Shown here piece by piece: positions 428-63,290 of a stretch of 64,000 bases of DNA. Under the pieces are notes generated by a model that saw only the letters and a list, made by a program, of their open reading frames with translations, was not told the DNA's origin and ran no database searches. Both the position numbers and the translations under genes were made by a program. The DNA lies in the NCBI GenBank assembly GCA_020283715.1, contig JAIQCW010000244.1, positions 1 to 64,000 on the forward strand, given 5' to 3'. Origin of the DNA: Cytauxzoon felis. Lineage: Eukaryota; Apicomplexa; Aconoidasida; Piroplasmida; Theileriidae. Every line of letters starts with the position of its first letter. Positions within the stretch are counted from its first letter, which is position 1.

Positions 428-2370
428 TCAATTGCTCAGTACATTATATAATGCATTTACCAATAATTTAATCTTACGATCATTTAATGCAGCTACACAG
501 ACGCGTGAATTCGATATAATATAAATATGATGCTCATTCTTTAATCTTTCAACATAATCCTTTGATATATTGAGAAATGCAAACATTCCACGTTGTTTAA
601 TTAAATGAGACCAATCACCAGGTACCCTTTTTTCCAATAAAGCATCATAAAGTGATTGTCTCATTGAAATTATACGTCCAATAATCGACGTCAACTCATC
701 TAGCCAAGTCCTCCTTAAATCCATATTAGATAATATCCTATAAGCAATCTCTGAACCATGACGAGGTGGATTACTGTAACATGATCTAGCTATCTGCTTC
801 AAATTAGAAACTATCTTCTTATTCATCGAATCCGATATTTCTTCACCCATTACCTACAGAATTTATAGTTATAATTGAAATAATAAATAATACATCCATA
901 AGGGTCCTCCACTCGAGGTCCAGTACCATTCCTCATTCCATCACTACCTTCTCTACCGCCACGATCTCCGGGAGTAGCTCCACCCTTCAGGGATAGTTAA
1001 TTAGAAGAGCTGACGGCAGGACAGACCTCAGGTGGAATGGCGAGTGGAAACAGAGTTGGATTGGACCTCAGGTGCGTTGGTAGTGAATGTATGAAACTAT
1101 GTTAATACTTACGATGTGTAGAACACCAGTTCTTGTGGAGTAAAGGCTCATGATTTTTGAGAATGATTGTGCAAGTAGAAAGTTTACACCTGCATCACAG
1201 AAGAGTTTGATTGGAAGTGCGTCTTTCTTGAGATTGTTTGTGGCAAAACCTTGATAAGCTGTATCTAAAAATGCTATTAATTGTTTCCTTTTTATGATGT
1301 CGATTATTTTCAACCATTCATCTTCGGATAAATCTAGACCTGTAGGATTATGGCATGATGTCTGTAAAACAACGATTGTATTTTCAGGGTAAGTTTCAAA
1401 ATCAGCTAATAGTCCTTTCATATCTACAGTGTTATCCTTGTAATTATAATATGGATGTTCACGATACTCAAATCCTGCACGTACAACAATGGATTCGTAA
1501 GCGACCCATGATGGATTACTAGTATAAACAGCCTGAATATGGATGACGAATTATTTTTTTGTATAAGAATTTTCAGGGTATACCAAATCTTTGTATACTC
1601 AAGATGTGAAATAAATTCAACTTACAGTCCCTGCAGGTACACATCTACGTAATAATGATAATCCATTAAATAAAGCACCAGTTCCGGAGAGGGCATGCTG
1701 TGATATCATACGGCTCCTTAATTTTTTATAATCATCTTCGCTATACCCTTCAAATTTAAAAAGTAAATCCGTAGCCTCATTAACAAATAAATCATGACCA
1801 AGAAGAGGTAAATACTCCTCAAATTCATTAGGGTCATTTGCCATAGCTATTTTAGCCATTCTTACAGCTCTAAAAAAATTTAATTTAAAAATCGAAAACC
1901 GAATAGATATCAGGTATTGATATCAGCAATACCTCCACTTAGGTACAATCATTACCTCCATCTCCGCCACGATCTCCGGGAGTTACTATACTCTTTAGAG
2001 ATAGGTAATTGGAAGAGCTGACGGCAGGACTGACCTCAGGTGGAGAGCTGTCTGCAAGACAAATATGGGCTGTACTAGAAGGTGTATGATGTAATATACG
2101 AGTAGGTAACATATTAATTGCTTCGATTGTTAATTTGGAGTAAACATACTTGAACATTTGCGGTTTTCCTTCGGCATCTCTGTAAACTCCTAGGCAAAGA
2201 TCGACTTTATCTGGATGTTTATCATTTTTGGCAGCGAGTACGGGTCCAAAATGTAGATCAGGTGGCACAATTTCTAGGTTGTTGTACATTTTATTATAAT
2301 GAAAGCATCTTGAAAGGGGGTTGAATATATTTTTTAGATGAGATCTTATAAATCTTATATTAAAATACAT
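428..2370 (-). CDS. Aspartate aminotransferase (4 exons)
   Basis: PLP-dependent transamination between aspartate/2-oxoglutarate and oxaloacetate/glutamate. Exons on the minus strand are 2150-2370, 1626-1869, 1113-1532 and 428-853, joined in phase to give 436 residues. The family landmarks are in order: PPDLHFGPVLAAK, VDLCLGVYRD, EYLPLLGHDLF, ALSGTGAL, SNPSW, SCHNPTGLDLS, LDTAYQGF, the PLP-lysine segment AQSFSK near residue 280, and the C-terminal RQSL..., WSHLIKQRGMFAFLNI and NSRVCVAAL. The first Met adds about 27 basic/hydrophobic residues that could be a targeting peptide; a later Met begins just before NNLEIVPPD. Introns 1 (280 bp) and 3 (259 bp) each hold one copy of the interspersed element in the gene's sense orientation, while intron 2 is 93 bp without one. 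The enzyme assignment is secure; the compartment is inferred. Confidence 0.95.
908..1074 (-). repeat. Interspersed element, module A, in aminotransferase intron 3
   Basis: Module A in the sense of the host gene (reverse on the + strand): the A core at about 957-978, then a diverged TTCAGGGATAGTTAATTAGA, followed by AGAGCTGACGGCAGGAC. CCACTCGAGGT- and ACCTCAGGTG-type boxes lie at both ends. No module B. Confidence 0.9.
1932..2060 (-). repeat. Interspersed element, module A, in aminotransferase intron 1
   Basis: Module A in sense relative to the gene, with TCTTTAGAGATAGGTAATTG and AGCTGACGGCAGGAC intact. If the intron were retained, the exon 1 frame would stay open into the element and read it in the same peptide frame (SSNYLSLKS) used by exonic copies. 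Confidence 0.9.
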
Positions 2371-2523
2371 AAAGAAAACAAGAAAATATTATACATTTAA
2401 CATGACAATTTATAAATTGTAGGTGCTTGTAAAAATATGTGTAAATTACCCACCGGATTCGGGTAAATTTCTGAATGTATCAGGTATATTTGACAATGTT
2501 TTGATTTTTATATTTTCATTCAG

Positions 2524-4504
2524 TTAATATGCGGTGTTGTTTAATTTCTGCGATATGATATCCAATTTTCCTCTAATTTGATCTATTGTACTACTATTTA
2601 GACTCTTAAGCTTGGCATTGACATTTATTGTCATGTGGTTCCTCTCATCCAGAGTGATTTCCTTGATTTTTTCTTTGAGTTTCTGTAATGACTCTATGCT
2701 AGAATGTCTAGAAACATGATTTTTCACCCACTTAGTGGTTGGATTGAATGGGCTTATAGAGGAGTCAATTGTACTTGGGCTCAATGACTTTATAGGAGAG
2801 TAAACAGAATTATAATCAGTGAAGATGTTCCTCGGTGATTTGGTAGTCGAAGAAGATGTAGATGTAAAATTGGCCTCGTTAGATGGGGACGAAAATACTA
2901 TCGTATTATCAATCCTCGAAACCAAATTAAATCTATCATCAAGCTCCTCCACATTTATACATTCACCAATATTCATGTCTCCTCCACTGTATGTCCTATT
3001 AATTACATCCTCTATTCCATTGGATGGAGATACTTCACCCGAGATATTTTGATTCGCCGTGGCGGCTGCATTTTTTACCTCGACCTCCGATTCCCTGAGA
3101 TCAGCTTCAGGTATTCCACTTGAAGTCAAATCATTACTTTCACCACAATCTCTGGGAGTGGCTATACTCTTTATAGATAGGTAATTAGAAGAGGCTTCCA
3201 CTCCCAGTGGAACTAACGTTGTAAACTTATGTGTATCAGCATGTGGAATAGAGACATCTTCCTTTTTATTTCGTTCGATGATTGCATCGTTGATATTGAA
3301 GAATCCATTGGAAGGACTTGTAGCTACGGTATAGTTCCTATTCTGGTCAATTGATGTTCCATCATCACAAGGTGGTAGATGTTGTAATTTGAATAGGGTC
3401 CTACACCTCAGTCTGTTATTGATATCAATTAAAGACTGATTTTGCACTTTATAAATAGAAACATCATCTAATAGCCTTTTATTATCAGTCCTTAAACGTT
3501 GTACCTCTAATTCTGTATCCTTGTACAACACCATCAAATTATTAACCTCAATCTTTAAATTCTCATTCAATTTATGAATCTGTTGCAAATTGCCCCTAAA
3601 GTAATCCAAATCCTTCTCCAACGTCAAAATCTTATTAGATAATTCCAATTTCCTATTATTCAACTCGTCAACCTCATTCCTATGCATATTTTGCATGATC
3701 TCCTGTGACGATATCAATGAATTATTCTCCTGCATATACAAATTTATTTTATTCTGCAACTGCATCTTATCCTTCAAATTCTCATCATTATATTTTCTCT
3801 CTATTATCAAATCTGACTCTATACTAGACAAATTGCCCTTTAACAATGCAATCTCCTCCAACAATCTCACATTCTCCCTCCTTGCATTCTCCAGCTCAGC
3901 AACGGAAGTTTGTGATCTAATATCACTAATCTTAAAATCTTTTATGGTGTCAGCATCTCGTAAATGAACCTCGCTTCCACCTTCCCCTTTATTAAAGGTA
4001 TGAATATTCGATAGGAGTATTTTTTTCCTCTCCTCCTTCTCCTTTTTTCAATTGGTTAATTTGTTCATTGATGCGCAGCGTCAGGTCAATGTACTTGAAT
4101 GAGACCTCTTCATCACATCTAGGCATAGAGTCAGAGTGGAAATCATTGACTATCAGTCTATTATCACCAAGTCTTCTAATGGGTAGATATGATATCTCCC
4201 TTCTATTTCGAACATATGCTAGAGTAGATTTGTCGGTACCATATAATTCGCTACTAGTCAACTGAGGTAGTGAGTCATTTCTGCGTAACTTACACCGTTC
4301 CTGGAATACACGATCGGAAAATGATAAAACGTCTTTAGATTTATGATTTTTATTGTATTCCATCAGCAGCGGATCATCATTTATGTCGGATTCTTTGAAA
4401 ATGTCTATATACAGTACGGCACTCCCATCATCTTCCGTCAATGCCGTATTAAGCTTCTGTGAAGGGGATTTATATAACAACGAATCGTCAATTTCCGTTC
4501 CCAT
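2524..4504 (-). CDS. Coiled-coil protein of ~659 residues with a one-base frame break in an A7 run
   Basis: Two reading frames meet here. The first starts at 4504 (MGTEIDDSLLYKS) and stops at 3992; the second is open from about 4025 to 2524. They fit together if one base is removed from a seven-T run on the + strand (4020-4026, A7 in the mRNA), giving 1980 nt. The N-terminal third is polar; residues about 200-390 are rich in leucine heptads and form a long coiled coil; the rest is Ser/Asn-rich. One interspersed element is translated in the linker after the coiled coil (3074-3212). No catalytic domain is recognised, so a structural or cytoskeletal role is only a guess. An alternative is an unseen intron, but I find no GT..AG pair close to the junction that preserves the frame. 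Confidence 0.65.
3074..3212 (-). repeat. Exonic interspersed element (A then B) in the coiled-coil protein
   Basis: Somewhat diverged A and B modules in coding sense, translated as [19 protein letters not shown] followed by IPEADLRESEVEV. Frame and order match the other exonic copies. Confidence 0.85.
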
Positions 4505-5317: not shown

Positions 5318-8300
5318 ATGGATGTGTCAAATTTTAACATAGCGGTTGACAATTTGATTAATAAATTCAATGACGAACCATTGGAGAGCCAATGTAGACT
5401 TACACCATTGAAGAGCGTTGAGAGTGATGTTGATCCTCAGGTACTATTGGATAAGATCAGGGATGAATGCAATAACATAGTTGTGCCATCATCTGTGAGG
5501 TCGAATGGTAAGGCAAGGAATGAGATGGTATTGGAACATGCTGAAGCTGTCATTGAGTATCAACGTGATCGTATAAATTCACTTGAAAAGACTATTGAGA
5601 AGTTCAATGATGCCATAACAAAGACTAATGATATGTATAAGGATGAATTACAGAAATATGCTAGTGAGAATAAAGATTTAAGGATCCAAATGCAGAATGT
5701 AATTTCAGACTATGAAGCTCTATCTAATAGATTTCAAGCTGAACGAGATGAATACCAAAAGCTTAAGGAAAAGGTAATTAAAGATGGCTCAGAAATGATA
5801 AAGAAGGATGAAGTTATTAGGAAATTAAACGACAAAATGGAAGTGCTTCCAAAGGAGAATGAATTTCTCAAGGAAGAGAGGAGAAGACTACTGGATGAAG
5901 TAAAGGTACTTAAGGATCAGTTGATGAATGAGGATGGGAGGAACGAAATAATAAAAATAGAGAATGATAATGGAACGAATGCCTTTAAGCACATGGTATG
6001 TGATGTAAGAAAGCAGGAGAATATAATGATGAGTAAATGTTTGATACAAGTAGAGAATGATTTGATGAGTTATAAAAGATTGAGTGAGGATCAAAAGATG
6101 GAGATTGAGAGATTGAATAATGTGATTGATGATATAAAAAGGACGAATTTGCGTCCTGATAATTTCATATTATCAACTCAGAAGCAAATGTTACAATTTA
6201 GGCAACTATTTATAACAATGGTGAAACAACATAAATGTATCGCAGAGGATAAGGATGTGTCACCATCTGACCACAGGGCAGCAAACGATATTGATAATCG
6301 TTCGTTGCATATGGCATATATACTTAAGGCGACATCAGAGCATAGGGAAATGTATGACAAATTATTGAATGTAGTTAAAAATGCTTTGGGTATCAAATCT
6401 AATACAAATTATTTCTACTCCTTTATAGCATCATATAGATTCACTAATGATTTGGATATCTACGGTGAATATACGAAAAGATCCTTTGATGTGAATGATG
6501 GTTTCATTTTAATACACATCTTGGATGATTTAAATGAGCATGTTGTTTCAACGAAGAAACTACTATTGACAGATCTTATTAGCATACGCAGAGATTTTAG
6601 GAATTTGGAATTCACCTTATCCTACAGCAATGGGCATCATATCATTAAATTAGACAACTCGGATTACTATAACAGATTGTATTACGCCCTTTTATATAGT
6701 GGCTTCATCGTGGAAGATAAATCTCTATCCATCCACTCTAACATCGATTTCTCATTGTTAGAAGACAACAATTGGCCAGTAGATCTTGTACCCATTTACT
6801 ATTCAACATCTATAACAAATCACAACAATACCGTCGCACATGAGGTTACTTCTACTGCAGATCGTGGCAATGTACATTCTGAAGAACAAACATCAGGTGG
6901 AGAAGGAGTCAATAAAAGTACATCATGTGATGTATATGATTATATAAATGGTGTATCTGTGATATTAGAGCCTAAATCATGTTTATTTTATTACGATTAC
7001 AATTTGAATTGTATAGTGATAAATGGTCCGAATATGGCAACTAGACCTAATATTATATTTTGTGGTGAAACATTGTTATTTGCTATTAGTAAGGGCGATT
7101 TTAATGAGGATTATGTAATATTACCACCTCCATTAGCGACGTTTCCTAATGGTAATCCTTGTAGTACTTTTTTTTCTAGACCCGTAGTATATGGTTTATT
7201 GAATCACGCTCGCATTCATTACATTATACCAAGAGATTCTAAATCTAGTGATCAATTGAAAATTATATTTCATGGTGCTAAATTTGCATCTATAAATGAA
7301 TTTACGTCACAAGGCTTATATATCATTGAGCCTGTAGCTGATCTCAGGGAAGAGGAGGGACAAGTAAATAGAGGAGCTCCATGCAATAGCAAAGAGGTTG
7401 TAACCTCAACTGGAAAGAAAAAAACAGGAAATGATGGATGTATCGTAAGACAGCCATCAGATAATATCCAGCATCCATTGTATAAATTTATTAATGGAAT
7501 ATTAGAATTATATCTTAGTGGTTCGGATGTACCTATAAAAGTTGATGTAACAAGTGCATATTATAAAAGTAACGATAGTAATAGAGAGGTCATCATTTAT
7601 ACAAATGTAAATACAGATAAGACAGAAACTTTTGTGTTATCAATAGATGAGGAGGATTTGTATAAAGAGTTTTTAAATGACCTTAAATTGAATGGTATAA
7701 AATCTGTAGATATGCTACCGACCAAAAATAATTTGAATAAGGGTCAATCTTGTATAGTCACTAAAGGTCTTATTGAACTATTCGATTATCAATCATCACA
7801 AACACCCATTATCGTATTCCATATAGATAATACTAAAGTTACTGTAGATGACAAGACAAGAAAAATTGTAATCATTCAACATGGAGAAAAGAGTATTAAA
7901 ATGACCCTAGATTGTACATCAGCTCCTGAATTTGCTAGATGGAAATTCGCCTTAACATTCGGTGGATTTTTAAAATGTGATATCAATACTAATACAGCAC
8001 TAAGAGAATTCATATTCCCAATCAAAATTTTCGATACAATCGACGATAATGGTGGAAGATCAGCATTCGATGTACAAGGTGATAGAATCTTACTATACAT
8101 CAATCCAAATTCTAATGAACCTTTCCTCATTTGGGATAAATCAACCATCAATATTACAACTTTCGATACAGATCGTAGGGTCAGAATTCATGTTAAGAAA
8201 AATACAAAATATGAAGAACGATTTGATCTAATCATACCTCTACTAAATGAATACAATAATTTCATCGGATTATTAAACAGATCAAATTATTCAACAAATC

Positions 8301-8659: not shown

Positions 8660-9029
8660 AAGTACAACATAAAAACATAATAATTGCAAACAAGCAAAGA
8701 ATTGTCCACACGAGGTCCAATCCAACTCTTCGTTCCCATTGCATGGAGCTTCTCGTCATCCTGCAGTCAGCTCTTCCAATTACCTATCTCTAAAGAGTAA
8801 AGCCACTCCCAGAGATCGTGGCGAGATTAAGGATGTAGCCTCAGGTGAAAGACAAGGGAAGATAGTATGGATCATCGACATAATGAGTGTGAACAACGTC
8901 TAAAATATTAATTTTTAAATTTAATTCTAGTAATTTTTTTGATTCATCCTTTTGAGAGCCGGCTTTACATATCTGTATGTGGGTGGGTGTAGTGGAGCGA
9001 GTTGTAGTTAATTCTTGTAACTCATAAAA
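8660..9029. other. Intergenic region with one element copy
   Basis: About 370 bp between the PH-like gene and RBM8A on the same strand. It contains the element copy at 8705-8850 and an AT-rich stretch just before the RBM8A start. I see no ORF or RNA gene. Confidence 0.6.
8705..8850 (+). repeat. Intergenic interspersed element, module A
   Basis: CACACGAGGTCCAATCCAAC, then TCCTGCAGTCAGCTCTTCCA, ATTACCTATCTCTAAAGAGT and the A core with CCCAGAGATCGTGGC. A GCCTCAGGTG box closes the copy. Confidence 0.9.
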
Positions 9030-9782: not shown

Positions 9783-12700
9783 ATGGAGGAAAAAGAACTG
9801 AATGTAACTTCGACGCAGGATTTGACTAAGAAGAGGAAAAGATTTAAAAATAAGAGCGTCGAAGGTGGTGGTCAAAATGAAAAGGTTAAAAAGTCCACGA
9901 AGCTCAAGAAATTTGACTTTACTGAGGATAAATACTTAGATACAATGGCTGAAGTAAGTTTTTTTAATATAAAAGGTTCATCTATAATTGAGGTGTTCTT
10001 GCAATTGTACCTTCAGTATCTTCTATTTTCATTACTACACCTCAGGAATCCGAAGATGAGTATAATGATCGAGATTCTTACGAGGACTCAGAAGAGGACG
10101 ATTTGGAAGAAGATATTGGCACTGCTATCCCCGATGAAATGAAGGATTTTATTACAGAAGAAGTAGAGGATGAAGTTGTTGAAGAAGATGTATCTGATGT
10201 CGAATATGAACCGGATAAACTGGATGAGGAAGATTTGGAACTGATTGCAGAGAATACAGGCTCGAAGGTAATGTTCCCAAAACTCCCCCTTTAACGGTTC
10301 CATAGTGGAAGACCAAGGATGAAGATGAGGATGAGGATAGAGGCAAGCAGTTGCGGCGCTTGAAAAAGGGTATGAAGAAGAGCACACAAGATGACGATGA
10401 AGATCTATGGTATGAGGATGAACCATCTAGAGCATTCGAATTATCTGACGTCTGGGCCACCGTTATTGAATGTTTCGGTGAAGTCGATCTAGTTATACAA
10501 ATCCTTAAGAATGAGAGAAATGTCCAGGCATCACAACAACAACAATTACAAGACGAAGAGGATGATGAACAAATTGTATCCGACTACGAACAAGAACAAT
10601 CGCAAAAGGCAGATGATAACACCGCATCATGGGATAATGTAAGTTAACTAACGAAGTATGAGTGAGCTTTTGCCCGCCGAAGATCCTATCCCCTTCCCTC
10701 CCATTCGCCGTAGATTCTTCTCTATTTATTTATCTCTAAAGAGTATAGCCACTCCCAGAGATCGTGGCGAAGGTGAGGATGTGACTTTATGTTGGAGATG
10801 GATAGTGATCCGTATGATATGCTACGCCTTACTAGTGAGGTTCATTTCTGTGATTATTATTTATTTTTGAAATGTTTAATAAACCTTTATAGTATGCTGA
10901 TCCTGATGAATTGGTGAGGGAGTACATGACCAAGGAGGACAATGAAATAAGAATGACGGATCAGCCGGAACGTTTATTTATTCGATACAAGAATAGAACT
11001 GCTATGACGAGCGGTCGTGACATTAGGGCTGAGTCTCAATGGATGACTAAGCGTCTACTTACCGAATTTAATAGAGATTTGACGAAGGAAAACATACAGA
11101 AATCATATGAGGAAGTTTTTAAAGGGTCATACCCATACCCAAATGTATCACCGGTATGTTTCGTACTATGTGAGAACATTTTCTAAATAACCAAATCACA
11201 ATTCATTTTCAGTCCCAAGACGTATCAGAGAAATGTGAGATAGTGTTGAATTGGTTATTTAATGAGAGATGGGAGGTACCATTTATACTGTACCATAAGC
11301 GTCATTTGATTTGCCCACCACTTACTGATGCTATCGTATGGAGGATTTATCAATTGGATAACGAATGGTTAAGACTAAGGAATTTATCAAATGAGTTGCA
11401 GAATTCCATTGAACGTATAGGACATGAAGAATTACCAAGTGATGTCATTTATTATTCGATGTACTTTGATTCCATGGAGGATTTGATAGACGTTTCCAAT
11501 CATCTGAATTACCACTTCCATATAATTCTAAATCCACCACAACTCAAACCTATCCAGCTTGATGAAGCACTAAAGTTAGACGATGACCTCGATGAAGACG
11601 TTGAAGATGATATCTTCGGTGATTTTGTACCAATAGATGAACACATCACTGACCCTGTGCACAATAAATCTCCACCCTCCAGTCCAGAAAATGTCAATGA
11701 TGTAGACGACACATTAGAATCACTAACCAATGAATCTGTCGATAGTATTGAAGATCTTCCAGCCAATATTACAGCTTCTGTTCCCACTTCTGTAGATGCA
11801 TCTTCTAATTCACTCCCCGTAAACGGTATAGCCACTCCCGGAGATCGTGGCGGTGAGAAGGGTAGTGATGGATCATCCATCATGGGAATGATGGAAGATG
11901 GTTCTAAGGATATGTTGGATGTAACCTCAGGTGGACTACCCGCAGCTGATCTCAGGGAAGCGAAGGGGGAAGTAAATAAAGGAGCTGACGGCAGGACGAC
12001 CTCTATTGCAATGCCTAATGGAAGAGAGGAGGTAATAACTTCTGATGTAACCCTTAGCGGAAAGAATGGAAAGGCTTCTGGTGTAGTACCTAGTTCTAGA
12101 TCATCGGAGATGGATGAGGATATAGATTACATTGTAGAAGAGGATAAATTGGATGTGATTGATTCTCAATCTATTCCGATTGATGAAGGCAAAAAATTAT
12201 TTAAACGCAGGAATGCTATGATGCATTTGATAGAAAGTTGTGAGCAGTATGGATTGCATGAAGTATGGAGTGGATATGTACCTACTGCTAATCAATTTTA
12301 TACTGTTTTGGAGAAGAGTATAGTACAGGGTTCAGCTGATCTTAAAGTTCAATTAAATGAAGTACGTGAGGCTTGGAATAGTTTGGGTATTACTGGTATT
12401 ATGGCTACTCCTGTAGTTGAGGGTAATGTTGAACAGCAAATTGAGGATATATGTACTCAATATTGTATTGGTCCATTTAATACTGGTAGGAGGGTTTATA
12501 AAACATTGGTTGATTACCATGCTAAGAAATTGGCAAATCACATATCGATTAAGCGTTTATTACGTGAATATTATCGCAATTATTGTAGTATAACTTGCAT
12601 TACTACACCAAAGGGTGAATTGGATGTAGATGCATCACATAGTTCTTGGTTATGTAGACGATTATTTAGATTTCCATTGATTAAAATGACATCTTTTGAT

Positions 12701-15953: not shown

Positions 15954-15958
15954 TTTTA

Positions 15959-17345: not shown

Positions 17346-17417
17346 ATAGCTGTATACGCTATTTACATAGTGGCACATTCAAGCAACTTCCATCTTTGTA
17401 TCATGAATCTTTACTGT

Positions 17418-17840: not shown

Positions 17841-18642
17841 TTATAATTATAACGACAATTAAAACATAAGTATTTAGTTGATTTAAATTTAATATAAACG
17901 GGCAAAACCTTCAGCGTATTCATCTAAGGCCCCCGTAAGAACATACCTCGGGTCTAGTACATTGACCTCAAGTGGACCCGTAGCTGATCTCAGGGAAGCG
18001 GAGGGGGAGGTAAATAAGGAAGCTGTCTGCAGGACGAAGAAATGTAGAAAGTGGAGAGAGTAATGAAGGAAAGTTATGCGATGATTGGGGATTTGCATTT
18101 GTAAATACGATTATTTATCATTTTTATCAACATTTCAGTACATCATACTTAAATCTACATGATTTCATGTTAAAATGTTGGATAGTGGACAAATTAATGC
18201 AGACGATAGGTTAGGGGATCTATAGAAGAATAAATGAAAAAGTCGTAAAAATCAAAATTAAACTGAATTGGAAAATAATGTTTATAAAAATTTAAATGAA
18301 TGATATCTGGTTGTTGTGGATTCTTAATTTAATATACTTTTTTGCCTAGACAAATTCTTCTGAGGGCGGTAAATCAAGTGCGTATGTGATAGTGTAGTGT
18401 TATAAGTTTAGTTATTTTATGCAGTAAATGAATATCCTTTTGATAGCAGAGACAATTTTTGTTTGAAATTTTAAGATTGAGAATTGAAATTATATCTATT
18501 GGATGTATGACGAAGGAGCAAAGGAAGAACAAAAGAACAGAGGATATTTTTAAACTATTAAATGTATATGTATTCTGTAGAGGATGTTAATATTTATTTA
18601 TAAATATTATCCTAATTTTTGTATAAGAATGATAATAATCAG
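17841..18642. other. Intergenic region upstream of the helicase gene
   Basis: About 800 bp between divergent genes. It contains the module B element at 17947-18037; the rest is AT-rich with no convincing ORF or RNA gene. It probably contains both promoters. Confidence 0.6.
17947..18037 (+). repeat. Intergenic interspersed element, module B only
   Basis: TGACCTCAAGTGGACCC then GTAGCTGATCTCAGGGAAGC, GGAGGGGGAGGTAAATAAGG and GCTGTCTGCAGGACGAAG. There is no module A nearby. Confidence 0.9.
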
Positions 18643-24157: not shown

Positions 24158-24556
24158 TAATATCAACCAATCTAATCTATTAAAATTTATATTCCACAAT
24201 CCATAAGGAGTTTGTAACTCCCATTCATCGTAAATCTTGCAGACAGCTCTTCTAATTACCTATCCCTAAAGGTTGAGCTACTTCCGGAGATACCGGATGT
24301 GGTAATCAATTGGATACGACAATGGTATACGCCTACGGTAGCTACAATGGACGGATAATCTCAATAGTGATAAATTTGTCCTAGGATATAATGTTTAGTA
24401 TGAAATGTGTGAGGCAAATCTATATGTACCAATCTGATTCGTTTGGTTACACCACACATGTAAATTAAAGGTGTATGTATTTTATAATTGGTGAACTTCT
24501 ATAATTTTAAATTTTACTATGGACATCGCAATAAATATTTTAAGTGTGTGGGTAAA
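24158..24556. other. Intergenic region with a degraded element
   Basis: About 400 bp between the helicase and V-ATPase genes. A decayed module A is present (24210-24297); the rest is AT-rich with no ORF or RNA gene seen. Confidence 0.55.
24210..24297 (+). repeat. Degenerate intergenic module A
   Basis: CTTGCAGACAGCTCTTCTAA, ATTACCTATCCCTAAAGG and a damaged core CTTCCGGAGATACCGGA. The outer boxes are missing. Confidence 0.75.
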
Positions 24557-40762: not shown

Positions 40763-42419
<1,657 letters not shown>

Positions 42420-53200: not shown

Positions 53201-56200
53201 CATCCAATATTAAATATAAATTTTAAATTGAAGTCAAATTATATAATCATTTTATTTATTAAAAAATTAACATTCATATCATCATGGATTAATCATTTAT
53301 ATATAACAGATCAATTAAATTATAATAATACAAAAACTGTTATACAATATTACCATGATATTATAAAATTATACCTATCAATCCAACAAGATTTATCAAC
53401 TTTCACCATTATACATCTATTGGAAATCTTCATTAATCTCAAGTTGCTTCTCAATACGACAAATGCAAAATATATCTACAAAATCAATCTCATCATATAT
53501 AATGTGATCTTACAAGAAAATAAATACACGAACACTGATAGTGTTCCACTCGAGGTTACATCCAACTCTGATCCCACTTCCACCTCTCTTCGTCTTGCAG
53601 ACAGCTCTTCCAATTACCTATCTCTAAAGAGTAGAGCCACTCCCAGAGATCGTGGCCGAAGTATAGTGATTGGACCTCAAGTGGAACCCGCAGCTGATCT
53701 CAGGGAAGCGAAGGGGGAAGTAAATAGAGAAGCTGACGGCAGGACCTCGAGTGGGACGCCTAGTGGAAAGACCTCAAGTGGTATTGATATCGATTATAAT
53801 AATATTTCACCCTTGGAACATATGAGATATTTGATCGGTAAATGTATTGGTCTACCAGCCGGATTATGTAATGATTTTAAGTACCAGATAATTTTGGATG
53901 ATTTAAATGATATTGTAAATTTTTGGAATTATATTAAAAATGATAATTCATTACGTAATTTCCAATTGAATTGTAATAGGATTAATATAATGGAAAAATT
54001 AATGATGAAATCACTAACATCCTCAATATCAAATAATATTTTCTTACTATTATACTATGTATCACCCATAATGAACAATTTATATAATTTAGAATTTGAT
54101 AAAATCATAAAGGAAATTTATACAAATCTACATAAAGGAAATCTGAAAATCAATTTACACGATTACTCAACAAAAATACCAAATAATAATACCATAAATT
54201 CAACATGCTTAAGATTAATCAATGCATTAAATAATATGAATGAACTTGAAATCGTTATCTCATGTACACTACTTATATTAATTACACTGCCAAATCTAAA
54301 TATTATACTCAATAATCTACAAAATATATACAAACTACAATCACATCAATCTCTCATTACTCAAATCAAAAATTCAGTATGTTTCCCAGATAGTTTATAC
54401 CTAACGGATATTACTGACTACATCATGCAGAGGGCTCTACAACTGAGGTTACATCTACCGTTGGTCCTGCAGAAAGCTCTCAACTCGAGGTCCAATGCAA
54501 CTCTCCTTCCACTAGGCGTGGAGCCTCTTCCAATTACCTATCTCTAAAGAGTAAAGCCACTCCCGGAGATCGTGGCAAATATGGAATGAAGAGTAGTATT
54601 GGACCTCAAGTGGAACCCGTAGCTGATCTCAGGGAAGCGGAGGGGGAAGTAAATAGAAGAGCTGTCTGCAGGACGAAGACAAGGTTGTAACCTCATGTTG
54701 AATGGAAGTGGGAATACAAGGCCGTAACCTCAGGAGTTATTCCTAGTGAAAGGTCCTATTGTTGAATTAACAATATAATTTACATTTTTATAGGAATCTT
54801 TTTATGGTGTATTGGATTCGATGGTGGATGGTGTATATTATGATCGTCTCGGTTTTTGTGAAATAATGAATAAATTAGAGTCCGAAATGGGTGACTGTAA
54901 GGTTACTTTAACATCGGTAGACTATAGAAATAATGAAGTAGATCTGTCGTCTGATGATTTTATTGATTTAATTGATGAATTTAAATCTGATGTTATGAGA
55001 TTTCTGGAATTAAATAAATTAAATGATTTAGACTCGTTATTGAATTTTCTAAATTATATTTCATTGAAATATTTAATATTAAATGAGGTTATTAAGCCTA
55101 TAGTGTTATCATTGCAGACATTAATTTCTATAATAAATAGGCGTAATGAATTGAATAATCAATCATCATTAAATATTATTAAAGGATTAGAATTAAAATT
55201 CCCATATAATCCCATAAAATCAATTTCAATTAAAGAACTTGTCAACATGACTCTAAATTTCTATAACATCAAAGATTTATATCATTACACTTCATGTTTC
55301 ATATATTGGTACTCAATTTTTAATCTCAAACATCTAATAACACCTTCATTCGAACCGCTCAAACATCTATTTATACTCATCACCAGCATATCAAATAAAT
55401 ACAGAAATGATGAAAATTACTCACAAGAATTTAAAATGACAACATTACAAAGATGTCTCTCAAACGCCAACAATAAGATGAAGAATATCGAAAATACAGA
55501 TATAGCAAATACTTTATCCAATGATGAGAATTTAGATCTAGATTCCAACAATGATAGTTCCTTATATTCATTCGGCATTGTAGAGAGTTCTCCACCTGAG
55601 GTTACAACATCTGTTCCACTCGCCGTGGAGGCCTCTTCTATTTACCTATCTCTAAAGAGTGGAGCCACTGCCGGAGATCGTGGCGAAGGTGATGGTAAGG
55701 GTAAGACATATGAAATGGGAACTATTGATAAAGATATTGGAGTGAGCGACGATATTTATAAACAAAATGAACTTGAAGCTATTGATATGTTATCAAATTT
55801 GCTAGTAAAAGTGATTTCTGGTAAAGAAGTTAATATAAATGTTGTATTAAATGTAAGTTTAACATACTTTATGCGTTTAATATTAAATTTTAGTCTATGA
55901 TTTATTTAAGGCTAAATGGTTATAAGGTGGAAAATTATGAATTAATCATGAATTGTTTAATGAAGAGTTCAAAAGATCTATATGGTTTTAATAATCTTAA
56001 CAATCATATTGTTGATATGTGGAATCTTGCACAAAAAATATATAAATTTACCAATCTTCTACTAAATGATTTTCCAAATCACCCACAACTAAAGGACGTA
56101 TTATACACTGTAAGTCTATACAAAACCTATAAAGTATAATTAATGTTATCTACTTGATCCATTCTATTTTCATTTTTAGGTTGAATCATTATCGCGTTTG

Positions 56201-59200
56201 AATGTCGATGAATTATCGATTTCAAATATAATTTCATGCTTGGAAATATTAAATGGTCGGATGCACAATTGGAACGAATACGCTCACTCTGGGATTACTA
56301 TGCGTCCCTTATGTAATGAATTAGAAGCTCTAATAATTAACCTTAGGAAGAAACAACTTGAAGAGTGGTCTGACCTGATCAAAAAACATTATGAAAAATG
56401 CCTAGAAAATAGTTCATCATTCCTCATTTACTTTATTGAAATGTGTAGTAAATTTTATGATCATTCAAATACAAATATCATCAATGAACTCCAACAATTC
56501 ATATTCAACGTCAACTTGCCTCAATTTATAAATACTTTAAATGTCATTAAGACTACGACTCAAATTTTCAATGTAAGTATTACCACGAGAGGGATATGTT
56601 TCATTTGTGGAGTATAGAAATGTAATCTCTGACTTTTCAATTCATATTTTTAGGATACGGATAATGAAGAAGAAATGAACAGGTGTATAATATTAAACAA
56701 CATGTACGAATTTTTTTCGTATTGGAAGGTCGATGTCGAAGAACAGCTCGAAGAAATGATAAAAAATTCAGAATCAAAGATAAAGGAAATTATCAGTGTA
56801 ATTAAATGGAATGGTCCAGATTATGTTACCATTAAAGAGTATGTCTGATTACGTTGATTTTTCCATTTACTTTAGGTCAATTAATTCCAATAAAAAACAA
56901 GTTCTAAATGTTATTAAGCAATTTGATGAGAGTATTAAAATGACATTTTCTAATTTTTATTTTAATAAAATCATCAATAAAGATTTAAAGATTGGCACAA
57001 ATTATACAAACGAACTTGCATCAATATTACGTAATAATACACAACATGTACTCGAGAATAGAAATGTAAGTCACCATTCACATACACTTTTAATTATTTG
57101 ATATAATCCTTATCCTCATCGTATAATTTAGAGTATTACAAGATTAGAATGCAAAGCTATATGTCGTGATATATGTGAATTATTAAGTTCCAATGGATAT
57201 AGCCAGTGTGTAAGTTTGACATTTTTAATTTTATCAATGGTATATAGAAATATAATGAAAATGTCTATACAATGATCGACTTTAACAAATCTCTCGTATA
57301 TGATGATCCCGTCATCAAGGAAGCTGTAAAATATCTTATAACATCACTACATATAATTTTCAATTTATATATGAAAAAGGACTATGAATTTAAAAACGTA
57401 ATTGATGTAAAGATATTTAAATTTTTATCATTCATGTTAAAGGAAGCTCATAATCAAATAATAAATGCATCTATAAATTGCAAAGGAAATAAGGAATCGT
57501 TTTATATCGAGAGAATAAAAGCGGAAGATCATTTTGTATTGAATAATAAAATTTTATTGATGAAATTATTCCAACATGTTGATGAATTATATGATGGAAT
57601 TATACAACATTTAGAAGTGTCATCAGATGATTTAAATGAATTGATGACAATGATTGATGATTTGATGGCCCTAATCTCAAAATCTTTCGAATTTAATTTA
57701 TACAAATTATCACCCATACCCATTGTTAGATGCAATTGGATTATGAATATTCGCAATTTACTCAATAAAATAATCAATTTTGTCGATGCTATTCCAACTT
57801 TAAACGTTATTATTGGTAAATTTTATCGTAAAATTATACAGGAGTTAAATGACGTAATAAATGATATACTAAAATTCAAGAAACAAATTGGAATAGGAAA
57901 TAAAACTAACCCTAGTACCGAAAATATATTTTTATCGGAAGTTACATCTACATATCCACTCATATCCACCGTAGGTCTTCCACTAGGCGTGGAGCCCTCT
58001 TCCAATTACTTCCCCGCAAACGGTAATACCACTCCCGGAGATCGTGGTGAAGGTGAAGGTGGTGAGGATGTAACATCAAGTGGACCTGGAAGCGATCTAC
58101 GGGAGCCGGAAGGAGAAATAAATAGAAGGGCTCCATGCAATGGAAAAGATGGACCTCGAGTGGAGGGCTCTCTGAAGGAGGAAGACAAGGAAAAGACATT
58201 AGATGAAGGAGTTGTATCTTTTATATCCTATTCATTACCGAATATGTCATTGGAATGTTTGGAGTTATGTAGATTTATAAATACATTATCTTTGATTCAA
58301 TTTACAAAAGATGAAGTTGAGGGTGAAGGTGGTGAAGAGATGACTGAGTTTGTTAGTGGTTCTGGTTTTGATGAAGGTTCGGCATTGAAAAATATATCGG
58401 ATAACATTGGTGAATATAATGATGATATGTTTGACAAAATTGGTGAAGAGAGTATGGAGAAGGAACAGAGAGATGAGGGCCCTGGGTTAGATTTAGAATT
58501 AGATTTCGAAGGTGAAGACTATAATGTGGATAAAAATGAGGATGAGGCATTGAGTGAAGATGGTGATATTAAAGATGAAGGAATTGGAGAGATAGAAGAA
58601 GATAATATTGCTGATGTCAAGGATGAAATGTTAGATGCTGATGATAACATTAAAAGTGATGATCTTAATAAAAGTAATCTTGATATTGAGGGAGAAGTTG
58701 AAAATGGAGATGATAATGAGTGCCCTTTACCCGAAGGTAATGATGAAAATTTTTCCATGGATAATCACATACAAGATGATGAAAAAGTAGAAGAAGCTGG
58801 TAGTGAAAAGGAAGAGGATATGCTTCCGTTGGATGATGGGAACTCGTCAGATAATGAGAGAGACAGAAAATTAGGTAAGTTGATATTATCATTTGTTCAA
58901 CATGTTTCAATAAACCCTAATGATGTTTCCTTAAGAGGCCAATGAATTTATTTTTATGATTTAAATATTCTTGAGATTGGTATAATTTTATTTTAATATA
59001 ATCTGAAGGGTTAAACATTCATGAAATTCATTTGTAAATATTATCCACCTATAGATTATGAATCATCAAGAGATTATGATAATGTGCCATATGGTGTACA
59101 TGGTGATGGTACAAGGTTTGTTTAAATTTATGCTGATTTCACGTCTATATCATCAGTCAAGTAAAGTATGATGAAGAACAAGAGTTTAATGATTCAACAC

Positions 59201-61563
59201 GTGGTAATAACAATATGAATGAAGAGCTACTTGGAGAAAAGGATGCCAATAATTTAAAAAGCGGTGATTTTATGGGTAAAGTACTTGATGGTAATGAATG
59301 GCTGAGGATGAATTCAACATTTATAGAAAATTTAACGAATGTGATTGAAAATTTGAACAGTGAAGGTATAGTAAATGATGTAATGAATGAATTGAGTAGA
59401 AAAAATATAATTAAAGGCGATTATACATGTGACAATAATACTACAAATATTGACAGCACATTAAATATAATCGATGATCAAAGTAATTCATATGGATTAG
59501 CACCCAATACTAGCAGTACAATCTCAGAAAAGAATGTCAATATAACTAAAGAAAGTTTCGTAGAACGTCCTACATCATCCACAAGTCCAATTAATGTTCC
59601 ACCAGAAGGTACATCCACTCTTCCACTCGGCGTGGAGCCTTCTCCTAATTACCTCCCCGCAAACGGTAATACCACTCCCGGAGATCGTGGCGAAGGTGAT
59701 GATGTAACCTCAAGTGGACTACCCGTAGCTGATCTCAGGGAAGCGGAGGGGGAACTAAATAGAAGAGCTGACGGCAGGGCCTCAAGTGAACCTTTGATAG
59801 AAGATGAGAATGGAGCTATTCCTATAGATTATAGTATTAACGATGATTCAATAACATTAAGAGGTTATATTGAATTAGATGATGATGAAAATAATATGAA
59901 TATTGATAATGGTGTATTAATAAAACAAAATATCAATCAACAACTATTACAATGGAATCAATTCATACAAAATACTGCACACATCTCCAATCAACTCACA
60001 GAACAAATACGGTATGTTACTCAGAAAACCATCATTCCACTTGAGTTCCAATCCAACTTCCATTCCACTTCCACCTAAGGTCGTCCTGCCGTCAGCTCTT
60101 TTAATTACCTATCTCTAAAGAGTATAGCCACTCCCGGAGATCGTGGCGAAGGTGGTGGTAGTGATTCGACTTCGAGTGGATCTACGGTTGATTTTGATAA
60201 GTATGTATTATTAATTATAGGATGGTATTGGAGCCGACCGTATATGGGGGTTTGCGTGGAGATTATAGAACTGGTCGTAGGATATCAATGAGGAAGTTGA
60301 TGTCATTTATAGCATCAAATTATCAGAGGGATAAAATATGGTTAAGGCGCACAAAACCGACAAAACGTGATTATCACATAACACTTGCTATTGATAACAG
60401 TAAATCTATGGCTAATTTCAATGCACAACCATTAGCTATTAAAACACTCGTCACTATTTATCAGGTAATTACACATACAACTTTAATAAATATAAACTAT
60501 AGGCACTCGAAAAATTAGAAATCGGCAACCTCACAATTTGCAAATTCGGAGGGTACGTTTACACATTGTTCCATAGCTCCGTGTCATACCGACGGTAACA
60601 TGAAGTTATCTCTGATCCCACCTCTCTTCGTCTTGCAGACAGCTTCTCTATTTACCTATCTCTAAAGAGTGAGGCCACTCCCAGAGATCGTGGCAATGAT
60701 AGAGGTGTAGTTATTAGACCTCAAGTGGAACCCGTAGCTGATCTCAGGGAAGCGTAGGGGGAAGTAAATAGAGAAGCTGTCTGCAGGATGAAGAGAGAAA
60801 AAGTCAAGTATATAATAATATAATATTTTATATAGTGCTCCACCAGAGATATTATTAGAAATGGGTGTCGGTGATAAATTGAATGTACTAGATAAATTAA
60901 CATTTGATGAAGAGACAATGTGTTCTCATGAGATGGGTTTACCACAATTGTTAGAATTCATATTAAATACACCCGTTAAATCTGATAAAAGAATCCTTAT
61001 TATTATATCAGATGGAAAATTCAATAAATCCAAAGCTAAACCATTCATACAACATACACTCAATCAGCATATCATACCACTACTCGTCATACTAGATCCT
61101 TACACATTACAACATAAATCAATCAAAAATATGAAACAAGTAACTAATATCAGTAAGTTTATCACCACTACTCGTAACTTCATCGATGACCCTCCCTTTT
61201 CCTACAGACGGTTTCTCCACCTGAAGTCCAATCCACCTCTCCTTCATCCTGCCGTCAGCTCTTCCAATTACCTATCCCTAAAGGGTAATACCACTCCCGG
61301 AGATCGTGGCGAAGGTGAAGGTAGTCATTGGACTTCAGGTGGAGGATTTAATGACTGTATATATGAATATATTTAACTAATTCAGATGGTAAAATGTGTA
61401 TAGAAGGTTTCTTCCAGAATTTCCCATTTCCATACTATGCAATAATTCATGAGATTGAGAAATTACCTAATATAGTAACAGACTTATTAAGGTGTGTTTG
61501 CAATAGGATTAATTTAACCTTATCACTCATAGACAATGGTTCGCTTTAACTAATCGTAGTTAG
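44245..61563 (+). CDS. MDN1: Midasin, AAA ATPase of 60S ribosome assembly (17 exons, ~5050 residues)
   Basis: Seventeen exons over 17.3 kb; the main ones are 44245-44816, about 45139-48407, 48477-54376, 54794-55852, 57248-58874 and 59157-60011, and the last is 61533-61563. Six dynein-like AAA modules: AAA1 has no Walker A (YWLIFDD remains); AAA2-5 have GETGTGKTS, GPTAAGKTS, GETGIGKTT and GDPGVGKTA with LLDE, ILDE, LADE and VLDE; AAA6 is degenerate (TGKFFSGKVS, LIKN). Then a long helical linker, an Asp/Glu-rich region (58320-58870) and the MIDAS domain (LAIDNSKSM, DxSxS). The end, FPFPYYAII..DLLRQWFAL, is typical. Midasin mechanically removes Rsa4/Ytm1 (NLE1/WDR12) complexes from pre-60S particles. 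It carries seven exonic elements, all in linkers, and five intronic ones. The intron 1 acceptor is ambiguous (45138/45139 or 45154/45155). Confidence 0.95.
44870..45145 (-). repeat. Interspersed element, full B-A, antisense in MDN1 intron 1
   Basis: Reverse B (ATTACTTCCCCCTCCGCTTC, GATCAGCTGCGGGTAG) then reverse A (GCCACGATCTCCGGGAGTGG, TTTAGAGATAGGTAATTGGA). Outer boxes include CACTCGAGGTCCAATCC, ATTTCAGGTGG and GACCTCAAGTGG. It supplies most of the intron and makes the splice acceptor uncertain. Confidence 0.92.
46262..46515 (+). repeat. Exonic element (A'-B), MDN1 linker between AAA1 and AAA2
   Basis: CCACATGAGGTTACCTC, CCCCGTAAACGGTAATGCT, CTCCCGGAGATCGTGGCGG, then B, GTAGCTGATCTCAGGGAAGC. 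Translated NYPPVNGNATPGDRGG, LVIGPRVE and [20 protein letters not shown]. Confidence 0.95.
47872..47996 (+). repeat. Exonic module A, MDN1 linker between AAA2 and AAA3
   Basis: CCACCTGAGGTTACATCAC, CACTAGGCGTGGCGCCTCT and A core CACTCCCGGAGATCGTGG. Translated PPEVTSLSPGTT and ASSNYSSLKSSATPGDRG. No module B. Confidence 0.95.
50233..50540 (+). repeat. Exonic element, long A-B form, MDN1 linker between AAA4 and AAA5
   Basis: PPEVTTSVPLAVEASSNYLS and LKSKATPRDRGGEKSSDG, then SSIMGMMEDGAKDVLDV and a variant B reading IPGSDLRELEGEINREG. The middle is nearly identical to the SPT6 copy at 11846-11933. Confidence 0.95.
53540..53783 (+). repeat. Exonic element (A-B), MDN1 post-AAA linker
   Basis: CCACTCGAGGTTACATCC, TTACCTATCTCTAAAGAGTA, CCCAGAGATCGTGGCCG, then B, GCTGATCTCAGGGAAGCGAA. 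Translated [25 protein letters not shown] and PAADLREAKGEVNREADG. Confidence 0.95.
54425..54745 (+). repeat. Interspersed element, full A-B, MDN1 intron 3
   Basis: CACTAGGCGTGGAGCCTCTT, ATTACCTATCTCTAAAGAGT, CTCCCGGAGATCGTGGC, then B and GCTGTCTGCAGGACGAAG. Compared with exonic copies, the GTGGAG/CCTCTT spacer is one base short, so the PPEVT-side frame would not run on into A. Host intron 417 bp. Confidence 0.93.
55588..55700 (+). repeat. Exonic module A in MDN1 exon 4
   Basis: CCACCTGAGGTTACAAC, CTCGCCGTGGAGGCCTCT, TTTACCTATCTCTAAAGAGT and CTGCCGGAGATCGTGGC. Translated PPEVTTSVPLAVEASSIYLS and LKSGATAGDRGEG. Confidence 0.95.
57955..58185 (+). repeat. Exonic element (A'-variant B) in MDN1 exon 10
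   Basis: CACTAGGCGTGGAGCCCTCT, CCCCGCAAACGGTAATACC, CTCCCGGAGATCGTGGTGA, then variant B, GAAGCGATCTACGGGAGCCG. Translated NYFPANGNTTPGDRGEG and GSDLREPEGEINRRAPC. Just upstream of the acidic region. Confidence 0.95.
59590..59800 (+). repeat. Exonic element (A'-B) in MDN1 exon 12
   Basis: CACTCGGCGTGGAGCCTTCT, CCCCGCAAACGGTAATACC, CTCCCGGAGATCGTGGCGA, then B. Translated NYLPANGNTTPGDRGEG and [19 protein letters not shown]. Lies between the acidic region and the MIDAS domain. Confidence 0.95.
60036..60183 (+). repeat. Interspersed element, module A, MDN1 intron 12
   Basis: CCACTTGAGTTCCAATCC, CCTGCCGTCAGCTCTTTTAA, TTACCTATCTCTAAAGAGTA, CTCCCGGAGATCGTGGC and a closing CTTCGAGTGGA. Sense. Host intron 209 bp. 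Confidence 0.93.
60608..60790 (+). repeat. Interspersed element, A-B, MDN1 intron 14
   Basis: TTTACCTATCTCTAAAGAGT, CCCAGAGATCGTGGCAATG, ACCTCAAGTGGAACCC and B, GCTGATCTCAGGGAAGCGTA, the last with a stop codon (TAG) in the canonical frame. Sense. Host intron 283 bp. Confidence 0.93.
61205..61345 (+). repeat. Interspersed element, module A, MDN1 intron 15
   Basis: CCACCTGAAGTCCAATCC, CCTGCCGTCAGCTCTTCCA, TTACCTATCCCTAAAGGGTA, CTCCCGGAGATCGTGGCG and a closing ACTTCAGGTGGA. The two ends are inverted copies of each other. Sense. Host intron 233 bp. Confidence 0.93.
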
Positions 61564-62190: not shown

Positions 62191-62657
62191 GTTAAAGTTA
62201 GTTAATTATATCATAATAATAGATTTAATAATCAAAAATCAACTAATGATAATAGTTATAATAAATTATTAGAATAAGTATTACCCCCATTGATGTTGTA
62301 TAAGTACATTATGTAATGATAAATCAGTTATGTAATCTATATATAGGTCAAATGTTCCGCACATCAATCCCCTACCCGACCTTCCATAGTAGGTCGTCCT
62401 GCAGACAGCTCCTCTATTTACCTCCCCTTCCAGCTCCCGTAGATCGCTTCCAGGTTCCACTTGAGGTTACATCCATACCTTTGCCACGATCTCCGGGAGT
62501 GGCTTTACTCTTTAGAGATAGATAATTGAAAGAGCTAGGGTAGCCCAGTTGGTGGGAATAGATTATATAAATAAAAATAAATAAAAAAATATACGAGTGG
62601 GTTCTGTAAGGATCAGTAAGCACGGGTAGGTCAACCGGTCGGCAGCTGCGGTCCGCC
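62191..62657. other. Intergenic region with an element and the start of a GC-rich island
   Basis: 467 bp. The first ~190 bp are AT-rich; then comes the element at 62385-62535, an A-rich stretch (62565-62600), and from about 62610 the composition becomes GC-rich into the next ORF. Confidence 0.6.
62385..62535 (-). repeat. Intergenic element, reverse B-A
   Basis: TCCTGCAGACAGCTCCTCTA, TTTACCTCCCCTTCCAGCTC, CCGTAGATCGCTTCCAGG (variant B, reverse) followed by GCCACGATCTCCGGGAGTGG, TTTAGAGATAGATAATTG (reverse A). Confidence 0.92.
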
Positions 62658-63101
62658 ATGTTGCTAAAGCGACAGCTATTCTCTGCTCTGTTGCCAGCCT
62701 GGAGCGGTACGCTGTACCACACCGCGAATGAACACCAGCCTACGCCGGTACCCATCCGCGACTTTAGCCCATTTCAGACAGTCGCCAGACGAGGAAAGCC
62801 TTCGTACGAACCCCTTCATGTTCTCACACGCGCCCCTAAGTGGAACTTAGTTACAGCAATTGCCGGGCACATTACCTCTCTCGATATTAACTCGGAGTGG
62901 GAATTTTTAAAAAAAAGTGTCCTGGCCCCATGTGGTATAATTTGTGTTGTACTGAGAGATCTGAATGAATCATTGTATGGAATCATTACACATTTGATTT
63001 ATATGAATTCAACTGATTTAAAATATTTGTTGTCATCTAATAAACATATAATATGCGGCAGCAGTCGCGGATCTACCTCATCATACACTAATATTCCATA
63101 G
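62658..63101 (+). CDS. GC-rich ORF of uncertain reality (147 residues)
   Basis: Open from an ATG (MLLKRQLFSALLPAWSGTLY) to TAG at 63099-63101. The first ~240 bp are about 57% G+C, in sharp contrast to its AT-rich neighbours; after about 62900 the composition returns to AT-rich. The N-terminus is basic, hydrophobic and Ser/Thr-containing, like a mitochondrial presequence. The next stretch, VPIRDFSPFQTVARRGKPSY and ALTRAP-like residues, is not a family I recognise. The last third may be non-coding read-through or an intron. Interspersed elements flank the ORF on both sides (62385-62535 and 63102-63290). It could be a real mitochondrial protein gene, a transferred segment, or a chance ORF in a GC-rich insertion. 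Confidence 0.35.
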   Translation: MLLKRQLFSALLPAWSGTLYHTANEHQPTPVPIRDFSPFQTVARRGKPSYEPLHVLTRAPKWNLVTAIAGHITSLDINSEWEFLKKSVLAPCGIICVVLRDLNESLYGIITHLIYMNSTDLKYLLSSNKHIICGSSRGSTSSYTNIP

Positions 63102-63290
63102 AAGGTCCATTCTTCTCTTCATCCTGCCGTCAGCTCCTTTATTTACTTCCCCCTCCTCTTCCCTGAGATCAGCTACGGGTAATCCACTCGAGGTTACATC
63201 CTCTGTACCTCTACCATCGCCACGATCTCCGGGAGTGGCATTACCGTTTACGGGGAAATAAATACAGAAGGCCGTCTGCAAGACAAAGCA
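63102..63290 (-). repeat. Intergenic element, reverse B-A'
   Basis: CATCCTGCCGTCAGCTCCTT, TTTACTTCCCCCTCCTCTTC, CCTGAGATCAGCTACGGG (reverse B), CACTCGAGGTTACATCC, then GCCACGATCTCCGGGAGTGG and ATTACCGTTTACGGGGA (reverse A'), closing with CCGTCTGCAAGAC. Confidence 0.93.

Follow-up and report, generated by a model that had tools for sequence, protein, structure and literature searches.

Rickettsia palindromic elements (RPEs), as characterized in passages of PMC10969869, are short palindromic repeats of ∼150 bp, a share of which lie in frame in unrelated genes and contribute a recurring peptide. The GC clusters of yeast mitochondria, according to sections of PMC4478555, are GC-rich hairpins in an AT-rich genome whose smaller units have been merged and shuffled and whose stems are constrained; they are mitochondrial and mostly intergenic, the main one measures 42 bp, and short direct repeats flank them. 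Parts of PMC2670323 describe short and very numerous palindromes of Volvox carteri that are considered selfish and are nearly confined to intergenic organelle DNA and to intronic organelle DNA outside open reading frames (ORFs), their nuclear copies being called inert, and parts of PMC2996958 describe PARCEL, translated palindromic DNA in unicellular organisms, eukaryotes included, that forms tandem 25-residue repeats within ORFs. Miniature inverted-repeat transposable elements (MITEs) and foldback elements have inverted arms, high copy number and no protein of their own. Here we report a repeat family of the piroplasm Cytauxzoon felis that resembles these systems in part, found in a stretch of 64,000 nucleotides (the window; contig C142 of an assembly of 8,623,106 bp in 181 contigs). 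On our best reading, the family would behave like RPEs in its placement and like yeast mitochondrial GC clusters in its shuffling, without falling under the definition of either, and we consider it probable that it is a selfish palindromic nuclear repeat family that spreads as DNA and has no protein of its own.

The DNA-level searches covered this C. felis assembly alone among Theileria, Babesia and Cytauxzoon genomes, and the detailed sample comprised 264,000 bases, made up of the window and stretches of contigs C4, C8 and C9. The original prediction, made from the letters of the window, was of about 30 copies of a high-copy modular family with two cores, A and B, richer in GC than its surroundings. 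At up to 3 mismatches, the window holds the A core at 24 sites, the B core at 16 and the B tail at 14, with 0 expected for each. Genome-wide, exact matches number 1,375 for the A core and 1,048 for the B 24-mer, and 0 for the reversed patterns. The hairpin loop GATCTNNGGGA is found 7,145 times in 8.62 Mb (3,565 and 3,580 times on the two strands) and its reversed pattern 14 times, an average density of ∼1 loop per 1.2 kb, whereas 44 RPE insertions are reported for R. conorii in the relevant passage of PMC10969869. As predicted, this is a high-copy modular family of a piroplasm, and its cores are not a product of chance.

Repeat islands, delimited by 13-mer counting in the sample, number 160 (30 in the window, 64 in C4, 59 in C8 and 7 in C9) and total 27.1 kb, or ∼10% of the 264 kb, with shares of 6% in the window, 9% in C4, 15% in C8 and 13% in C9. 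The 30 islands of the window, together with a decayed copy at 38427-38491, bear out the anticipated copy number, and the GC content is likewise as expected (51% in islands and 30% in the remaining DNA of the sample). The sample contains 230 loops, or 0.87 per kb (genome, 0.83 per kb), and scaling the 160 islands by loop counts gives an estimate of ∼5,000 islands genome-wide. The constituent boxes and hairpins (tokens) were scanned in all 160 islands, and the sequences of the first 95 of the 160 were inspected by eye.

Each unit consists, from outside inward, of a T box, an H box, a linker, a TAAA-type hairpin and a core hairpin, one or more T and H boxes making up the arm. The T box is TCCACCTGAGGT and variants, and the H box takes any of six short forms; of these, three read as stems (GTCT/AGAC, CTCT/AGAG and CCAT/ATGG) enclosing a common loop, TGC. 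The linker is ..CAATTAC or CTATTTAC. The small hairpin has TAAA or TGAA as its loop and CTC/GAG, CCG/CGG or CCC/GGG as its stem, and a 3-bp stem is formed at 128 of 137 such sites. In the core hairpin, a constant loop of 11 nt is enclosed by one of several complementary stem types: on one strand the A core is CCAC-GATCTNNGGGA-GTGG, and on that same strand the B core is GCT-loop-AGC; a second B form (d) is AGC-loop-GCT, a third (e) is GAC-loop-GTC, and stems AAC/GTT, GAT/ATC and AGT/ACT are rarer. A and B, which share the loop and differ in stem, thus represent one hairpin in opposite orientations. Both core sequences that had been predicted are thus present, but as inverted homologues of one hairpin unit and not as separate modules, and the predicted flanking boxes, also present, belong to layered inverted arms. 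The analogy with RPEs that had been proposed holds well for behaviour, whereas constant loops, swapped stems, combinatorial arm boxes and a nuclear eukaryotic genome with introns are differences.

The core stem is perfectly paired over 3 bp at 317 of 347 distinct sites, a set that includes loci fetched because they hold elements. When the right halves were redealt, the mean was 102 paired sites and the maximum 129, and slid registers gave 0 to 2. The exact complement is the commonest partner for seven of the eight commonest left stems, and the eighth, GGC, has GCT as its partner in 4 of 4 cases. There are 8 complementary stem types, and a count of types is not inflated by relatedness. Compensating stems, as in GC clusters and double-hairpin elements, are therefore a feature of this family.

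The tokens follow a strict polarity. Among the 100 islands that contain a single A core, all 359 T, H, linker and hairpin tokens to its left point inward, and all T (161), H (100), linker (39) and b, d or e (78) tokens to its right face the opposite way. A complete element runs from a left arm through the A hairpin and a spacer to a second hairpin (b, d or e), followed by a right arm in inverted orientation. Among the islands are 70 A-B composites, 30 with A alone and 51 with B alone. The composites have a median size of 255 bp, are nuclear and often exonic, and no flanking repeat was found around them, all in contrast to GC clusters. The X box (GTCTACCCGGAAGAACA) is the sole token right of A that mostly faces the other way (23 boxes are oriented alike and 1 oppositely), and it is repeated five and six times in the spacers at C8:29462-29772 and C8:47370-47902.

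The arm hairpin boxes combine independently of one another and of the spacer. The innermost H boxes of both arms are the same in 15 of 61 composites, with 13.2 expected under the null (P = 0.34), and because these boxes are independent, foldback of the whole element is disfavoured as a general form of copying; some copies do have well-matching arms (locus L042 and window 61216-61343). We then compared spacers in an enlarged set of 94 composites, which gave 63 spacer-sharing pairs; the largest spacer group (n = 10) is a nonrandom sample, 9 of its members having been fetched for resembling the window copy 50238-50539. Pairs that share a spacer have the same left H box in 27% of cases and the same right H box in 16% (23% and 20% of all pairs), whereas they share the TAAA-type hairpin in 87% and the right core in 71% (56% and 48% of all pairs). 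The central block thus tends to travel together, and the hairpin boxes of the arms are freely exchanged.

Longer composites look like the same arms placed around other interiors. A second interspersed family, K, has an AT-rich interior with a conserved TTCCCCAGAAATTC stretch and is flanked by inverted d and b units. Its interior, ∼175 bp and continuing into the K token, recurs in C4 and C8, with 13 copies aligned (loci L011-L029, e.g., C8:31001-31340 and C4:69376-69813), and no K token is present in the window. In a masked self-comparison, similarity among K copies stops at the limits of the interior. Over the 264 kb this comparison gave 96 matches, and among the 60 shown the K-type interior predominates, with few other duplicates. 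Another AT-rich segment is common to C8:56286-56612, C9:5343-5666 and C8:59540-59781, with element units bordering differing sides, and is possibly a third interior. An empty site was sought around these three (C8:56.0k, C9:5.0k and C8:59.2k), two of which have a B unit beside the common segment while the remaining one has none; since the flanks are nonhomologous, this yields no clean empty site.

Copies lie in exons, introns and intergenic DNA, as had been proposed. For 55 of the 233 core sites, a reading frame stays open for 70 codons or more in both directions, and in all 55 the longest such frame uses one strand and one frame of the element. This is the in-frame behaviour of RPEs, to which the family is likened by behaviour and not by RPE sequence. 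The other 178 are not in long ORFs and the copies are dispersed, in contrast to PARCEL. In a test of 210-bp flanks on 213 evaluable clusters (222 less 9 at edges), both flanks were open on one strand for 54, and reading frames ran through the element without a stop in 44 of these. Of the 44, 43 scored as sense and 1 as antisense; the latter (window 11814-11850) sits in the sense-strand ORF 11174-15211, the script retaining the last strand tested. The 10 clusters that did not run through comprised 4 sense and 6 antisense. For full composites that this test left out of the exonic class, the canonical frame was open in 10 of 59, the other sense frames in 0 and antisense frames in 3 and 1, and a random 220-bp frame is open in 9% of cases.

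The element peptide recurs in SPT6, midasin, the antigen cf76 and further ORFs. The SPT6 homologue of the window is closest to that of Theileria equi (52% identity, residues 1-700); its copy sits in a linker whose length varies, and 8 aligned orthologues were not seen to contain the element peptide. In midasin, the copy at 50238-50539 sits between stretches matching solved midasin, with query residues 577-726 (149 residues) set against 82 residues of 6or5 (1469-1551). Candidate introns with GT-AG borders (417, 209 and 233 nt) contain three further midasin copies; once these introns are removed, the frame around an element is open, whereas the unspliced frames are closed. The 417-nt intron was the sole splice solution found, the 209-nt intron has one other acceptor and the 233-nt intron four other listed choices; a fourth splice test gave no solution. 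Intergenic copies flank a signal recognition particle (SRP) RNA gene on either side.

Exonic copies are read as tolerated passengers filtered for an open frame, given that they diverge as much as other copies and show no consistent excess of third-position changes. Mismatches per copy against the consensus average 1.71 in exonic and 1.66 in other A cores, and 3.13 and 3.03 in B cores. The third-position share is 0.36 in exonic and 0.26 in other A cores, and 0.27 and 0.34 in B cores. Selection on the peptide was rejected, codon positions giving no clear signal. Exonic copies have no stop in the core's canonical frame (0 of 31 for A, 0 of 30 for B), and other copies have one in 1 of 114 and 6 of 90 cases.

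The antigen cf76 offers a view of two copies in a gene sequenced from several samples. According to portions of PMC3748084, the sequenced C. felis isolate has a 723-amino-acid cf76 encoded by a single exon, and PMC6310948 places the gene, in the passage concerned, at contig00195:6540-8711 of the C. felis genome. We find the 723 residues encoded at C114:6540-8708 with 100% identity, by which the assembly was assigned to C. felis, and two in-frame elements within them, C114:7050-7380 (L051) and 8190-8540 (L052). At the DNA level, the first reads T> H6> T> H1> s> c> A> T< b< s2< H4< T< and the second H6> c> A> T< b< H1< T< H1< T<, the latter terminating in a 33-bp tandem of the H1-T box. A 30-bp tandem in the C-terminal region of cf76, present twice in 10 of 11 samples and once in one (PMC3748084, in part), is taken to be this H1-T box, though the lengths differ by 3 bp. 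The listed forms of cf76, of 706 and 723 amino acids, differ only at alignment columns 119-305, around and upstream of the first copy. The C-terminal region, described in the same source as the most reactive with cat sera, includes the second copy, and this reactivity concerns the region as a whole and not the element separately. In passages of PMC3748084, PMC6310948 and PMC10058880, no dispersed repeat is mentioned. When a 106-residue stretch of the window that bears an element was compared with 226 candidate proteins, the two matches at E values up to 1 were both cf76, and the element peptide was not found in other piroplasms' proteins of ∼617-1,961 amino acids (the 226 candidates) or of 172-548 amino acids (84 candidates).

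Taken together, we favour a selfish palindromic repeat of the C. felis nucleus. We infer mobility from the dispersal of the copies, the spacers common to unrelated sites, the failure to see the element peptide in SPT6 orthologues and the allelic differences of cf76. One window element was scored against 40 of 3,095 candidates: its 39 best matches elsewhere have 83-97% identity across 177-290 bp, reaching 92-97% across 177-271 bp, and such identity would suggest a fairly recent spread. The hairpins might be recognised or copied as single-stranded DNA or as cruciforms, new copies could arise by structure-dependent copying or capture of DNA, and arm boxes would be swapped at the hairpins when dispersed copies undergo template switching or gene conversion with one another.

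Several observations weigh against a selfish repeat of this kind. Of the 46 elements that carry T at each end, 9 have identical outermost T boxes (null 5.1, P = 0.023), a slight excess that would agree with the ends pairing in the way transposon ends do; perfect outer inverted repeats in these elements span 0-17 bp. No signal of target-site duplication was seen in the 46, whose true outer ends may be decayed: lengths of 0, 3, 4, 5 and 6 were observed 19, 20, 5, 1 and 1 times, and shuffled pairs gave 22.9, 16.1, 5.2, 1.1 and 0.4. Within the C. felis assembly, neither an insertion polymorphism nor an empty site at the DNA level was seen. Folded as DNA, eight single units do no better than shuffled sequences (z scores of −1.19 to +0.64; three control stretches, −0.68 to +0.87), whereas the copy at 61216-61343, with its matching arms, folds far better (z = −5.67). 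Besides the complementary stems, 20 further left-right combinations exist, all rare and together at 30 sites, and quasi-palindromes corrected by template switching could produce the covarying stems with no selection for a hairpin at work. In cf76, the differences reach upstream of the element and may thus reflect a divergent haplotype.

The rival that survives best, although we judge it unlikely, is that these are MITEs or foldback elements mobilised by a transposase whose gene lies at another place in the genome or has been lost. The inverted arms with their strict polarity, the slight excess of matching outer T boxes and the AT-rich interiors that sit between inverted d and b units at sites with nothing else in common argue for it. 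However, the inner H boxes match at chance level, leaving arms of unmatched composition, and target-site duplications are not apparent in the 46 elements. Four transposase families were searched in the genome: rve, DDE_Tnp_4 and MULE gave no match with working controls, and DDE_1 gave no match with a control that did not work (hAT, piggyBac, Helitron and Crypton, among others, were not searched).

That the DNA is useful to its host, as replication, recombination or chromatin sites or as a source of antigen diversity kept by selection, is also improbable. Such a role would suit the high average density, the conserved hairpin grammar and the presence of copies in a surface antigen at a point of difference between its listed forms, but exons, introns and intergenic DNA are occupied alike, the island share is uneven between stretches, exonic copies show no constraint at the codon level, and the peptide did not appear in other piroplasms' proteins within the two size ranges searched. 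Rather doubtful, too, is a nuclear DNA cassette system in which a hairpin-reading enzyme would recognise the constant loops and exchange the arm hairpin boxes, at positions that stay fixed, more quickly than entire elements multiply, in-frame copies thereby varying surface proteins such as cf76 between isolates; were this true, the family would be a mobile element that diversifies proteins throughout the genome and has no known transposase.

A SINE-like retroelement (one resembling short interspersed elements) copied from an RNA would account for structured units in high copy number, but we regard it as very unlikely. RVT_1 matches in the genome are confined to one ORF, which also carries a telomerase RNA-binding domain, no Rfam family reaches the gathering threshold at any window element, and no A-rich tail was seen in the first 95 of the 160 islands. 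Stem mismatches are of similar type on both strands (17 of GT type on the loop strand and 12 of AC type, those of the other strand) and so give no indication of a single-strand origin from RNA. The weakest proposal, that exonic copies are introner-like introns that are spliced out, is scarcely credible even with some copies intronic, since the open run through 44 of 54 open-flanked copies would be unneeded for introns, the single-exon cf76 (PMC3748084, in part) encodes both of its copies, and intronic copies sit inside longer introns.

Copies in the window are listed in Table 1. Here, Rfam matches at the gathering threshold are limited to the SRP RNA (62639-62860, minus strand, RF01856; element copies on either side) and one tRNA, neither at an element; spliced genes, SRP RNA and tRNA set the window apart from the organelle location of GC clusters. 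COX1 has no match anywhere in the assembly, from which the mitochondrial genome is seemingly absent. A FAINT-domain protein is also encoded in the window, and within it, at 38419-38611, three degenerate copies of B type stand in tandem, as though amplification of an element had given rise to a protein repeat. Outside the window, C4:22099-22433 and C4:48797-49131 are inverted copies of 335 bp, 99% identical and with no element tokens inside, which represent a recent duplication or an assembly effect; the second starts 4 bp from an A unit at 48715-48793.

Table 1. Element copies in the 64,000-nucleotide window
Feature	Position	Strand	Evidence
A unit T> T> H1> c> A> T<	907..1074	-	island count, token scan
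A unit H2> T> H1> s> t> A>	1963..2062	-	island count, token scan
A-B composite, exonic in frame (ORF 2524-4047, minus strand)	3015..3210	-	ORFs, tokens, flank test
B unit, exonic in frame (ORF 5264-8659, plus strand)	7330..7414	+	ORFs, tokens, flank test
A unit	8711..8824	+	island count, token scan
Short A unit	10738..10772	+	island count, token scan
A-spacer-B composite, exonic in frame, SPT6 homologue	11757..11996	+	tokens, flank test, orthologue alignment
A-B composite	14996..15239	-	island count, token scan
B unit	17963..18040	+	island count, token scan
A unit	19433..19505	+	island count, token scan
A unit, T boxes at either end	21441..21564	+	island count, token scan
B unit and X box	23359..23561	-	island count, token scan
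Decayed A unit	24235..24267	+	island count, token scan
A-e composite, decayed	25980..26015	-	island count, token scan
Decayed B-type copy, exonic, FAINT-domain protein	38427..38491	+	flank test
A-B composite	44876..45063	-	island count, token scan
A-B composite, exonic in frame, midasin	46266..46513	+	tokens, flank test
A unit, exonic in frame, midasin	47883..47994	+	tokens, flank test
A-spacer-d composite, exonic in frame, midasin	50238..50539	+	tokens, flank test, match to solved midasin
A-B composite, exonic in frame, midasin	53544..53782	+	tokens, flank test
A-B composite in midasin intron 54377-54793, GT-AG	54443..54695	+	splice test
A unit in open frame 54794-55900, midasin	55588..55688	+	ORFs, tokens
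A-d composite, exonic in frame, midasin	57964..58180	+	tokens, flank test
A-B composite, exonic in frame, midasin	59620..59779	+	tokens, flank test
A unit in midasin intron 60012-60220; acceptor 60161 also open	60078..60151	+	splice test
A-B composite, perhaps intronic; all frames closed, splice test without solution	60620..60788	+	tokens, splice test
A unit, 17-bp inverted-repeat ends, probable midasin intron 61153-61385 (alternatives open)	61216..61343	+	folding, splice test
A-d composite, intergenic, adjoining SRP RNA gene	62394..62513	-	Rfam, tokens
A-B composite, intergenic, opposite side of SRP RNA gene	63120..63286	-	Rfam, tokens

At the level of titles and abstract openings, we did not find this family described in the open-licence literature on Theileria, piroplasms and Cytauxzoon. 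It is surprising that ∼10% of the sampled DNA belongs to one palindromic family in a group of parasites reported to lack transposable elements. To our knowledge, palindromic DNA that invades coding sequence is known mainly from Rickettsia, and the present family is a nuclear eukaryotic case. With thousands of copies, alleles and modules available for comparison, the multiplication of hairpin repeats with no enzyme known for it becomes a testable question. Judging from the shared sequence, the peptide common to the vaccine candidate cf76 and many other ORFs may also bear on cross-recognition in C. felis serology.

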